Shown here: positions 18,587 to 57,202 of the stretch, piece after piece
How the letters are laid out: every line of letters begins with the position of its first letter
How positions within the stretch are numbered: position 1 is the first letter of the stretch
DNA from: Gammaproteobacteria bacterium
GTDB taxonomy: Bacteria > Pseudomonadota > Gammaproteobacteria > Steroidobacterales > Steroidobacteraceae
Direction: 5' to 3'
Length of the DNA stretch: 64,000 nt
Assembly (NCBI GenBank): GCA_016874295.1
Contig: VGUH01000008.1
Location: 1 to 64,000, forward strand
The notes under the pieces: generated by a model
Told to the model about the DNA's origin: nothing
Databases searched by the model: none
What the model saw: the letters and a program-made list of their open reading frames with translations, nothing else
Translations under genes and position numbers: made by a program

Positions 18587-18656
18587 GGTGCCGGGTCGCA
18601 CTTATCGTACTTATTGGCTTTTTGGCCAATAAGTACGATAAGTGCGACCCGGCACC
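18587..18656. repeat. Family A palindrome, copy 1 (perfect 32-bp arms)
   Basis: Two 32-base arms are exact reverse complements around a six-base centre (tttttg). Arms start ggtgccgggtcgca and end cgtacttattggc. The element lies between the convergent BON and SPOR-protein genes, ten bases from the end of the SPOR gene. A second copy with the same arm sequence except one compensated position lies at 51268-51373. Confidence 0.95.
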
Positions 18657-18665
18657 AATCACCAA

Positions 18666-24944: not shown

Positions 24945-26457
24945 AGTGAAGTTCGTCGACCGCGACGCGTCAACCACGCCGCCGGCGGCAGGTTTTGGCA
25001 CCCCCGGCTACCGCGCCTACGTGCTCAACATGCTCCTGCTGGTCTACGTGCTCAATTTCGTGGACCGCGGGCTGCTCGCAGTCGTCGCGCGGCCGCTGAA
25101 GGCCGAGATCGAGATCTCCGACACCGCCTGGGGCCTGCTCACCGGCTTCGGGTTCGCGCTGCTGTACACCACGGCGGGAATCCCGATCGCGCGCCTGGCC
25201 GAGACCCGGAACCGCGTCTGGATCATGGCCGTCTGCCTCGCGTTCTGGTCGCTCATGACCGTGGCCTCCGGGCTCGCCGCAGACATTGCCGTCGGCGGCT
25301 TCGTGATCAGCGGGTTCTGGGTGCTGCTCGTTTGCCGCATCGGCGTGGGGCTCGGCGAGGCCGGCGGGACGCCACCGGCGAACTCGCTGATCGCCGATTA
25401 CTTCCCGCCGCGTCGCCGGCCCGCCGCGATCGGCTACTACGCGATGGGCGTCACGCTCGGGACGCTGCTTGCGAACCTCGTCGGCGGGCCGGTCGCGGAC
25501 TGGTTCGGATGGCGCGCGGCCTTCCTGATCCTCGGCCTGCCGGGCGTCGCGGTGGCGGTCGTGCTGGTGCTGACCACGCGGGAGCCGCCGCGCGGCTACA
25601 CCGACCCGCCGCACATGCCGCGGCCCGCGGAGGTCTCGCTGCGCGACGGCTGGAACGAGCTGCTTTCACGCCCGGCCTACTGGTGGATGACGGCCGGCGC
25701 GACGATCGCCGCGTTCTGCGGCTACGCCATCGTCAGCTTCCAGGCGCTCTACCTGCAGCGCAGCTTCGACCTGACGGCGGGCGAAGCCGCGCTGCAATTC
25801 AGCGCGCCCGCCGCGGCGGCGGGCGCACTCGGGACTTGGCTGATGGGGCAAACCGCGTCGGCGCTCGGCGAGCGCACCCCGGGCGCCGTCGCCTGGCTCG
25901 CCGCCGCCGGGTTGCTGGCGGCGATTCCCTTCTATTTCCTGGCGTTCACCGCCTCGAGCCTCTGGGTGTGTGCCGTCAGTCTGTCGCTCGCCTACTTCGT
26001 GAAGTACGGCTACATCGGCGCACAGTTCACCATCACGCAGGGCGTCGTCTCGATGCGCGTGCGCGCCACCGCGACCGCCGTGCTCCTGTTCATCGTCAAC
26101 CTGGTCGGCTACGGGCTCGGGCCGCTCTTCGCCGGCATCGTCAGCGACGCGAGCTTCGCCCGCGCGCAGTCGCAGTCGGTCGTCGCCGAAGGTCTGACCC
26201 GCTCGATGTGCGACGCCGCCCAGCAGCAGGTCACTGACGCGTCACGCCTCGCATCGACGCCGCCGCTCGGTGCGGAACTGCCGGCACTGCTCGCGGAACT
26301 GCCGCAGCCGATCACCGCCGTGCAATACGGGTTCTGCCTGGAAGCCAATGCCTCCAGCACGCAGTTCTCGATGCTGCTGATTACCTCGCTCTACGTGCTC
26401 GCCGCGCTCGCCTTCGTCGCGAGCGCCCGCCGCCTGCGCCACGACCTCCAGGTCTGA
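24931..26457 (+). CDS. MFS transporter (spinster-like)
   Basis: A 508-residue inner-membrane carrier with about twelve helices. The start region has YVLNFVDRGLLAVVARPLK, and loop 2-3 has GIPIARLAETRNR, both typical of spinster-like MFS proteins in proteobacteria. The family signature RIGVGLGEAGGTPPANSLIA is clear. A hydrophilic loop of about 70 residues before the last helix (around SDASFARAQ to LEANASST, with two cysteines) is unusual for MFS. The ATG overlaps the M24 gene. Substrate cannot be told. Confidence 0.85.
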   Translation: MRLPEVKFVDRDASTTPPAAGFGTPGYRAYVLNMLLLVYVLNFVDRGLLAVVARPLKAEIEISDTAWGLLTGFGFALLYTTAGIPIARLAETRNRVWIMAVCLAFWSLMTVASGLAADIAVGGFVISGFWVLLVCRIGVGLGEAGGTPPANSLIADYFPPRRRPAAIGYYAMGVTLGTLLANLVGGPVADWFGWRAAFLILGLPGVAVAVVLVLTTREPPRGYTDPPHMPRPAEVSLRDGWNELLSRPAYWWMTAGATIAAFCGYAIVSFQALYLQRSFDLTAGEAALQFSAPAAAAGALGTWLMGQTASALGERTPGAVAWLAAAGLLAAIPFYFLAFTASSLWVCAVSLSLAYFVKYGYIGAQFTITQGVVSMRVRATATAVLLFIVNLVGYGLGPLFAGIVSDASFARAQSQSVVAEGLTRSMCDAAQQQVTDASRLASTPPLGAELPALLAELPQPITAVQYGFCLEANASSTQFSMLLITSLYVLAALAFVASARRLRHDLQV

Positions 26458-26520: not shown

Positions 26521-26615
26521 GGGCCGCGCGCCGAGCGCGGGCGGGGTCCTGAGTGAGCGACTAGAGTTCCGGCGGAGCGAACGAGGGAACCCCGCCCAGC
26601 GATGGCGCGCGGCCC
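26521..26615. repeat. Family B palindrome, copy 1
   Basis: A 95-base imperfect hairpin between the convergent MFS and pntB genes. Outer arms gggccgcgcgc and gcgcgcggccc pair exactly, and inner arms gggcggggt and accccgccc pair exactly, with a seven-base mismatch on each side between them. The centre is a 37-base asymmetric core (26551-26587, containing gagttccggcgga). The same core recurs inverted at 56042-56078 with five differences, all transitions, inside different but self-complementary arms. Confidence 0.9.
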
Positions 26616-26623
26616 CTGACCAT

Positions 26624-28045
26624 CTAGCCTGCGGCCTTCACCGCGTGAATCAGCTCCGCCGCGACCTTCTGCGCGTCGCCGTACACCATCCGCGTGTTGT
26701 CGAGATAGAACAGGTGGTTCTCGATCCCCGAGAACCCCGCCCCCTGGCCGCGCTTGATCACCAGCACGTTCTTCGCCTTGTCGGCGTTCAGGATCGGCAT
26801 GCCGTAGATCGGGCTCGACTTGTCGGTGCGGGCGACCGGGTTCACCACGTCGTTGGCGCCGATCACCAGCGCGACGTCGGCCGTGTCGAACTCCGCGTTG
26901 ATCTCGTCGAGGTCGGCGATCAGGTCGTAGGGCACACCGGCCTCGGCGAGCAGCACGTTCATGTGGCCCGGCATGCGGCCGGCGACCGGGTGGATCGCGA
27001 AGCGCACCATCACGCCGCGGTCGATCAGGAGCTGGCACAGCTCCCAGACCTTGTGCTGCGCCTGGGCGACCGCCATGCCGTAGCCGGGAATCACGATCAC
27101 CTTCTGCGCGAACGCCATCATGACGCCGGCGTCCGAGGGCTCGATCGGCTTCAGCGAGCCGCTGACGCCCTCGGTCGCGGCGGCCGCACCCTCGCCGAAG
27201 TTCGAGAACAGCACATTCGCGAGCGAGCGGTTCATCGCCTTCGCCATCAGCTGCGTGAGCAGCGTGCCCGCGGACCCGACCACGATGCCCGCGATGATCA
27301 TCGCCGCGTTCTCGAGCACGAAGCCCTCGAACGCGACCGCGAGGCCCGTGAAAGCGTTGTAGAGCGAGATCACGACCGGCATGTCCGCGCCGCCGATCGG
27401 GAGCGTCATGGTCACGCCGAGCAGCAGCGCGAGCGCAAAGAAGCCGACCACCATCTGCATCGACGGGTGGCCGGAGACCACGATCGCGGCGCCGAGCGCG
27501 ACTGTCGCAGCGGTGATCAGCAGGTTGGCGGTCTGCTGGCCCTTGAAGCGGAGGCTGCGCTTGATGAGGCCCTGAAGCTTGCCGAAGGCGATCAGTGAGC
27601 CCGAGAAACTGACCGAGCCGATGAAGGCGCCCGCTGCAGCCAGCGTCGTCACCACCGGGCCGTGGTGCGCACCCGCCGCGGGATCCGCCGCCGCCATGCG
27701 CAGGAGCTCGACCGCCGCAATCGCCGCCGCGGCGCCGCCGCCCATGCCGTTGTACAGCGCGATCATCTGCGGCATGTCGGTCATGGCGACGATGCGGCCG
27801 CTCCACCAGGCGAGGCCGCCGCCGATGGCGATGGCCGCGAGCATGAGCGGGAAATTGCCCATGCCCGGGTAGAGGAAGCTCATCAGCGTGCCGATCAGCA
27901 TGCCGAAGCCGGCGACGACGATGCCGCGGCGCGCCGTGACCGGCGAGCTCATGGCCTTCAGGCCCATGATGAACAGGAAGGCGACGAGCAGGTAGGAGAA
28001 GTCGATCGCGAGTGTCGCGACGTTCTCCGGCAGGAGTCCCGACAT
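26624..28045 (-). CDS. pntB: NAD(P) transhydrogenase subunit beta
   Basis: The proton-translocating transhydrogenase transfers hydride between NADH and NADP+ at the inner membrane. This 473-residue subunit has about nine membrane helices (1-270) and the NADP-binding domain dIII (about 290-473), with GYGMAVAQAQHKV, AIHPVAGRMPGHMNVLLAEA, DVALVIGANDVVNP and ENHLFYLDNTRM. The start overlaps the stop of the alpha-2 gene by one base. It is last of the pntA1-pntA2-pntB operon. Confidence 0.97.
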   Translation of the reverse strand: MSGLLPENVATLAIDFSYLLVAFLFIMGLKAMSSPVTARRGIVVAGFGMLIGTLMSFLYPGMGNFPLMLAAIAIGGGLAWWSGRIVAMTDMPQMIALYNGMGGGAAAAIAAVELLRMAAADPAAGAHHGPVVTTLAAAGAFIGSVSFSGSLIAFGKLQGLIKRSLRFKGQQTANLLITAATVALGAAIVVSGHPSMQMVVGFFALALLLGVTMTLPIGGADMPVVISLYNAFTGLAVAFEGFVLENAAMIIAGIVVGSAGTLLTQLMAKAMNRSLANVLFSNFGEGAAAATEGVSGSLKPIEPSDAGVMMAFAQKVIVIPGYGMAVAQAQHKVWELCQLLIDRGVMVRFAIHPVAGRMPGHMNVLLAEAGVPYDLIADLDEINAEFDTADVALVIGANDVVNPVARTDKSSPIYGMPILNADKAKNVLVIKRGQGAGFSGIENHLFYLDNTRMVYGDAQKVAAELIHAVKAAG

Positions 28046-51268: not shown

Positions 51269-51373
51269 CATGGTGCCGTTTTCATGGTGCCGGGTCGCAC
51301 ATATCGTACTTATTGGCCTTGTTGCCAATAAGTACGATATGTGCGACCCGGCACCATGAAAACGGCACCATGA
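51268..51373. repeat. Family A palindrome, copy 2 (perfect 50-bp arms)
   Basis: Two 50-base arms are exact reverse complements around a six-base centre (cttgtt). The inner 32 bases match copy 1 at 18587-18656 except one position (t in copy 1, a here), and the opposite arm carries the matching change, so both copies pair perfectly. The outer 18 bases contain a second catggtgcc unit absent from copy 1. The right arm runs into the ATG codons of the glycosylase gene. Confidence 0.95.
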
Positions 51374-56013: not shown

Positions 56014-56109
56014 GCGAGCGCGCATCCGGGCCGGGCGGGGACCCTCGCTCGTTCCGCCGGAACTCCAGTCACTCGCTCGGGGACCCGCCCGGCCCGGATG
56101 CGCGCTCGC
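56014..56109. repeat. Family B palindrome, copy 2 (perfect 26-bp outer arms)
   Basis: Outer arms of 26 bases (starting gcgagcgcgcatccgg) are exact reverse complements and enclose an asymmetric centre. The 37-base core at 56042-56078 is the inverse of the core of copy 1 at 26551-26587 with five transitions. The outer arms are unlike those of copy 1. The element ends two bases before the stop codon of the epimerase gene. Confidence 0.95.
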
Positions 56110-56110
56110 A

Positions 56111-57202
56111 CTATGCCTTGCGGGCGTGCCAATCCCCCAGAATTGCCGCTTCCTGCTCTGGCGTGAAGCCCGAGCGGAACGCCGCCTGGCGCTCGGCCGG
56201 CCGCGTCGCGTGCCAGGCAAGCGTGTCGCGTACCGTCGTCTCGAGCGGCCGTGCCTTGAGCCCCTGTTCGACGGAGGCCTGGATGCCGGTCAGCGAAGCG
56301 CCTGCCTCGGGACCGTGCATCGCGCTCCACGGCGCGAGGTTCACGTCGGCCGCCTGCTCCGCGATGAACTTTTCATCGATCCAGGTGAGCCTGGTGTCGG
56401 CGCCCGTCACGGTTCGGCTCGTGTCCATCAGCGAGCCCATCGTGATCGCGCCGGGCGGCGTGACGGCGTTGAAGTAACCGTCCACCTGGCGCTCGACGAG
56501 CCTCATCATGAAATCGGCGAGATCGCGCACGTCCACGATCTGGATCGGGTCGGCAGCGGCGCCCGGCACCGCCATCTCGCCGCCGCGCGCAAAGCGCACC
56601 GGCCAGTAGGTGAAGCGGTCGGTCGGGTCGAGCGGGCCGACGATGTAGCCCGGGCGCACGATCGAGCAGCGCCGGGCGTAGGCGTCGCGCACGTACTGCT
56701 CGCACACTGCCTTCATCGGCCCGTAGGTCTCGTTGGTGATCTCTTCCTGGTCCTTGTTCTCCAGCACGCCCGTCGGCGAGCCGATGTCGTTCGGCTTTTC
56801 GAAGCTGGCGTAGGCCGAGGTGCTCGAGATGTAGAGGCAGTAACCGGTGTTCGGCGCGAGCAGATCGGCCGACATCTTGCAGTATTTCGGGATGTAGCCG
56901 GTGTTGTCGATGACCGCATCCCAGCGGCGGCCCTTCAGCGAATCGAGCTGGCCCTTGCGGTCGCCGTGCAGCGTCTCGACATCCTCGACTCCGTCCGGGT
57001 CGCGCTGGCCGCGGTTGAAGTGCGTCACCTTCCAGCCATGCGCGAGCGCGACCTTGGTGACGTGCGGACCGATGAAGCCGGTGCCGCCGAGTACCAGCAG
57101 TGTGCGCTCCTGGCCCGCCTGCGCCATCAGCCTGCCTCCTGCGAGCGCGAGCACCGTGCCAGCGCCGGCCTTGATCAACGTGCGTCGTGAAAGCGCCATC
57201 AT
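56111..57202 (-). CDS. Tat-exported NAD-dependent epimerase/dehydratase-like protein
   Basis: A 363-residue extended short-chain dehydrogenase-like protein. The NAD(P) loop is LLVLGGTGFIGPHVTKVALA, and a tyrosine in the YxxxK position may be YGPMKAVCEQYV. Before this fold stands a twin-arginine signal (ALSRRTLIKAGAGTVLALAG). A Rossmann enzyme with nucleotide cofactor in the periplasm is uncommon but known for Tat substrates folded before export. The sugar or other substrate is unknown. Confidence 0.8.
   Translation of the reverse strand: MMALSRRTLIKAGAGTVLALAGGRLMAQAGQERTLLVLGGTGFIGPHVTKVALAHGWKVTHFNRGQRDPDGVEDVETLHGDRKGQLDSLKGRRWDAVIDNTGYIPKYCKMSADLLAPNTGYCLYISSTSAYASFEKPNDIGSPTGVLENKDQEEITNETYGPMKAVCEQYVRDAYARRCSIVRPGYIVGPLDPTDRFTYWPVRFARGGEMAVPGAAADPIQIVDVRDLADFMMRLVERQVDGYFNAVTPPGAITMGSLMDTSRTVTGADTRLTWIDEKFIAEQAADVNLAPWSAMHGPEAGASLTGIQASVEQGLKARPLETTVRDTLAWHATRPAERQAAFRSGFTPEQEAAILGDWHARKA

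Follow-up and report, generated by a model that had tools for sequence, protein, structure and literature searches.

Dispersed REP-like palindromes with a strand-specific inner hairpin and variable self-pairing arms in one genus of uncultured Steroidobacteraceae

REP repeats and their BIME and REPIN arrangements are dispersed intergenic palindromes, which lie by the 3′ ends of genes in convergent or tandem settings. They form dimers of opposite orientation, including heterodimers, and their families are taxon-specific (PMC3733652, PMC3116915). Tagged REPs have a short, conserved stem of 6-13 bp with an unpaired GTAG or CGTC tag (or a variant) at its foot, and REP and REPIN repeats are linked to RAYT, a Y1 transposase gene flanked by repeats. 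Occasionally, REP copies are found in frame within repair genes, DNA polymerase I among them (PMC3733652). The copy number of REPs is usually above 100 per genome (PMC2817692). Two further kinds of palindrome have been described: the long terminal inverted repeats that flank RAYT genes, and the Rickettsia palindromic elements, which are able to sit in frame within genes (PMC3733652). Furthermore, template switching between the arms of an inverted repeat homogenises the arms and inverts the spacer (PMC8604942).

We analysed a stretch of 64,000 nucleotides (the window) from a Steroidobacteraceae MAG of 2.37 Mb in 46 contigs. The window contains two palindromes, which are members of a hairpin-forming repeat family with about 120 copies in one genus of uncultured bacteria. 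This family is called family B, and about 20 of its copies are in the genome of the window. Family B resembles the known REP repeats in kind although its anatomy is different. The two copies and their parts are as follows.

26521..26615, + strand: family B copy 1, a singlet; the folded strand is the + strand
26521..26550, + strand: variable outer left arm of copy 1
26551..26560, + strand: inner left helix strand of copy 1, GAGTGAGCGA, with tandem-GA blocks
26561..26574, + strand: conserved loop of copy 1, CTAGAGTTCCGGCG
26575..26587, + strand: inner right helix strand of copy 1, GAGCGAACGAGGG
26588..26615, + strand: variable outer right arm of copy 1, the partner of the left arm
56014..56109, - strand: family B copy 2, a singlet; the folded strand is the - strand
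56014..56039, strand not applicable: outer arm of copy 2, a perfect 26-bp complement of 56084-56109
56042..56078, - strand: 37-nt core of copy 2, comprising inner helix and loop
56084..56109, strand not applicable: outer arm of copy 2, the partner of 56014..56039

Copy 1 lies between convergent genes (the stop codon of an MFS transporter gene is at 26457 and that of pntB at 26624), and copy 2 begins 1 nt past the stop codon of an epimerase-family gene, 56111-57178 (- strand). The initial annotation had reported both palindromes and a common 37-nt core, and we located the core at 26551-26587 (+) and 56042-56078 (-). Its count of five differences, all transitions, was correct. Four of them make up two compensatory base-pair changes (GAGTGAGC..GGAGCGAAC versus GAGCGAGT..GGAACGAGC), and the fifth is inside the loop. 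As had also been described, the arms of each copy pair with each other, perfectly over 26 bp in copy 2. In copy 1, we found the pairing to be imperfect. The z-scores of the single-strand folds were -5.2 (copy 1) and -8.5 (copy 2), values equalled by none of 200 shuffles. No Rfam family matched the window above its gathering score; the best sub-threshold match was to a miRNA model with an E of 1.

The genome-wide core search suggested in the initial annotation was performed with a 22-nt pattern (up to 2 mismatches). It gave 18 matches in the genome of the window and 0 for the reversed control. Therefore, the family is not due to chance. A covariance model was then made from 61 copies (threshold in the own genome, E<0.01). 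Searching related genomes with such a model had likewise been proposed, and the same architecture was recovered in each of the seven genomes sampled from the genus: the own genome has 21 matches, and the other six have 33, 44, 9, 7, 4 and 3, the weakest matches in the low-count genomes being marginal. Thus, the copy number is low for a REP-like repeat, at most 44 matches per genome. The doubts raised with the two copies were that other cores might lack paired arms and that the two copies might be misassembled. The arms of the other copies pair, and their sequences differ. Misassembly is excluded because the same family is present in independent MAGs of the genus.

Outside the genus, 1 of 113 other genomes of the same family was positive, with three copies of identical sequence. 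When 246 genomes sampled from the order were searched with the covariance model, only the genome of the window was positive (0 of the 245 others). A pattern scan of named genomes found the Steroidobacteraceae MAGs ACE_PRO67 and CoA_1_bin.57 and the Gammaproteobacteria MAGs nzgw591, FW602_bin.2 and Baikal-deep-G150; S06.Bin099, which is labelled Betaproteobacteria, also yields paired units. The full doublet had no match in the phage and plasmid collections searched. Matches of the loop pattern in IMG/VR were rejected as family members because their arms were not comparably paired. A literature search with the core sequence returned unrelated papers only. One half unit was observed (L004, around 1500): its right half is intact, and other sequence takes the place of the left; the break lies between CT and AAGTTCC.

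Each unit is a hairpin with an asymmetric, conserved loop of 13-14 nt, closed by an inner helix of 16 pairs. A typical inner sequence is GCGAGCGAGCGC-GTAAGTTCCGGCG-GCGCGAGCGAGC, and the loop sequence differs by lineage (GTAAGTTCCGGCG, CTAAGTTCCGGCG and AATAAAGATCGGCTG). The helix is built of two-base steps, some of which are GA opposite GA (tandem G·A/A·G mismatches) and others Watson-Crick. For example, at one step position different copies have GA/GA, TC/GA, AA/TT, GC/GC, CC/GG or another Watson-Crick step. The Watson-Crick steps between the G·A blocks covary (C-G 52, T-A 8, one mismatch), double-sided changes occur in 14 of the 16 pairs and the covariation score is 0.390 versus 0.164 for shuffled and 0.033-0.121 for slid partners; the copies counted here are related by descent, so that the cells are not independent events. 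The ratio of G·U to A·C in this zone is 33:1, or about 15-19:1 when distinct events are counted. Because the G·A steps are T·C mismatches on the opposite strand, the folded strand is defined. Thus, the inner fold is maintained on one strand only. The G·U excess could be explained by folding as RNA and equally by folding as single-stranded DNA.

This conserved loop and inner helix with tandem G·A steps distinguish family B from REPs. Moreover, the copies inspected have no common unpaired GTAG/CGTC foot tag or variant of it. The initial annotation had compared the palindromes with REP units; the likeness stands for their location and pairing, and does not extend to membership of the tagged REP class. 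It had also named attC-like hairpins, which, as integron recombination sites, share with family B a single-strand hairpin with strand-selective imperfections. However, the conserved loop AAGTTCCGGCGG does not contain GTTRRRY, the R′ core of attC, and has GTTCCGG in its stead. Furthermore, the copies are single or in inverted pairs amid housekeeping genes and do not form cassette arrays. An integron function is therefore extremely improbable.

The paired outer arms average about 41 nt each (pairing was searched to 45 nt per arm) and are variable, in contrast to the short conserved stem of REPs. In this outer zone, G·U and A·C, which were scored alike, each occur 80 times; the G·A mismatch count was set aside because the aligner is lenient on G·A. 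The equality of G·U and A·C gives no sign of strand-specific selection there. The two arms of a unit have an identity of 0.77-0.80 to each other. Outer arms of orthologous units give 0.69 when compared, and elements paired at random give 0.66. Thus, the arms of a unit change together. The description of a fixed core with variable self-complementary arms, made from two copies, holds throughout the genus: the outer sequence differs between copies and pairing is kept. Type 2 units (for example L050 around 1627, and L216) form a contrasting subfamily: a mismatched box, GAGGTGGC / GCCGGATCC, is conserved between species in their outer arms, whereas the arms of other units vary freely.

Orthologous sites were compared between genomes of the genus (G000 is the genome of the window). 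Behind the gene 56111-57178, G000 has family B copy 2, and G003 and G006 have unrelated palindromes. In G004 and G005, a short gap alone separates the stop codon from a conserved GTAAGAT stretch, and these two relatives have an empty site. The palindrome behind the G003 ortholog (L259) is AAGGGGACGCGTCCAATTACC...GGTAATTGGACGCGTCCCCTTT, in the place of family B, and that in G006 (L261) is another long hairpin, GACGCACAGCAGCGCC...GGCGCGTTGTGCGTC. The different palindromes at this site suggest a hot spot for palindromes. At the pntB site, there is one unit in G000, two in G003 and G005 and none in G006 and G001. A shorter GGGGCGCGTCCCC piece was observed behind pntB in G001.

Four species have an in-frame unit in polA, in the linker between the 5′-3′ exonuclease and 3′-5′ exonuclease domains. 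Its core identity is 0.84-0.98, and the unit is reversed in G003 relative to G000, G001 and G006, so that a different peptide is read in G003. Family B thus shares in-frame copies in the DNA polymerase I gene with REPs. In-frame placement is also a likeness to the Rickettsia elements, as described in PMC3733652; the difference is that polA is the only gene in which family B was found in frame. Both flanks could be matched for 38 ortholog pairs, of which 20 have opposite orientations, most clearly in polA; the count includes doublets, which contribute ambiguous pairs. Orthologous elements have an overall core identity of about 0.80, and some sites differ in core type. Thus arms, core type and loop orientation have all turned over at common sites; turnover of arms and loop orientation at fixed sites is a further difference from REPs. 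Because some sites are common to three or four species, many copies are old. No target-site duplication was recognised.

Template switching would account for the outer arms and for the loop flips. The likeness to template-switch-corrected quasipalindromes lies in arm homogenisation and spacer inversion, but those are isolated inverted repeats, whereas family B is dispersed and has a conserved loop (PMC8604942). The arm-to-arm copying read from the two window copies agrees with the behaviour of the outer arms and with the inverted loops of orthologs, as a process that we infer rather than observe. Could template switching be the whole explanation, with palindromes that are passively kept alike once formed and nothing that recognises them? 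The strand neutrality of the outer arms agrees with this idea, and paired drift and loop inversion are explicable by template switching alone (PMC8604942). However, the loop is conserved and sequence-specific, the tandem-GA steps persist uncorrected, the inner helix is strongly strand-biased and about 20-44 dispersed copies are present in each of three genomes. We therefore regard passive palindromes as quite improbable. The loop, the preserved G·A steps and the inner strand bias are unexplained by template switching and suggest that the folded strand is recognised. The folded recognition site postulated in the initial annotation gains support, for the inner 45 nt or so, from strong strand-specific covariation; no recognising protein was found.

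The genomic sites of the units were classified by means of a gene caller whose training set consisted of verified genes, and the two units of a doublet were counted separately: 47 units are in convergent, 51 in tandem and 1 in divergent context, 4 are inside polA and 5 are at contig ends. For comparison, the intergenic DNA of the window amounts to 495 bases between convergent genes, 1924 between tandem genes and 2177 between divergent genes. The units are placed just behind genes, within tens of nt 3′ of stop codons, as REPs are. Among close pairs, 28 of 30 are outward-facing (-+ orientation) and mostly 81-148 bp apart, so that inverted doublets are a unit as in REPINs; dimers of opposite orientation, heterodimers among them, are a feature shared with REPs. 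Singlets predominate in the genome of the window. No recurrent neighbour gene or transposase was found beside the elements, and the flanking genes are ordinary housekeeping genes.

Such positions, just past stop codons and in convergent intergenic gaps, would suit RNA elements, namely bidirectional transcription terminators or mRNA 3′-end stabilisers, with selection acting on the hairpin of the transcript. An inner helix that tolerates G·U, not A·C, on one strand only is in line with this. However, orientation to the upstream gene is variable: in tandem context, 28 units have the same and 23 the opposite orientation, and the slight lean of the tandem singlets to sense (12:5) is not significant. 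Orthologs flip orientation, the outer arms have no G·U excess (80:80), some copies are within polA and, in flanks inspected by eye, the copies are not followed by the U-tract of an intrinsic terminator. RNA-level function at gene ends is possible, but as the explanation of the family it seems unlikely. Because the outer arms are neutral and the units keep no fixed orientation relative to the gene upstream, we judge single-stranded DNA more likely than RNA to be the folded form.

We consider it probable, with some reserve, that family B consists of genus-restricted, dispersed REP/REPIN-like palindromes, which spread non-autonomously and whose arms are kept matched by template switching. The units would have spread as small non-autonomous mobile elements, a reading drawn from their dispersal, the empty sites and the resemblance to REPs. 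The inner hairpin, when single-stranded, would be recognised in trans by a putative enzyme. Once a unit is inserted, template switching by a polymerase from arm to arm might keep the two matched and flip the loop. The units would be tolerated at gene 3′ ends and may also act on transcript ends. A narrower proposal is offered tentatively and may well be wrong: family B might represent a REP-like mobile class in which the loop and tandem-G·A helix of one strand are recognised by a non-RAYT enzyme and renewable arms are matched by template switching.

The family makes two forces separable in one palindrome, strand-specific selection inside and unbiased arm matching outside. The orthologous sites, including the in-frame polA copy with its inverted loop, are a natural series for following template switching in bacteria. 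The clean strand-specific hairpin could be used as bait for a processing enzyme other than RAYT.

Unlike REPs and REPINs, family B has no linked RAYT. Six Y1_Tnp genes of the genus had no family B unit within their 1.5 kb flanks. A link of family B to the Y1_Tnp gene of its own genome was considered and rejected, since that gene is flanked by palindromes of family A. Palindromic repeats in the same genome are thus a likeness to the long terminal inverted repeats that flank RAYT genes (PMC3733652), but it is family A, not family B, that flanks the Y1 transposase gene. The palindromes of family A are near-perfect (GGTGCCGGGTCGCACTTATCG...), and in the window this second family is found at 18587-18657 and 51285-51356. 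It also flanks the Y1 (RAYT-like) transposase gene at locus L056 (G000:C12).
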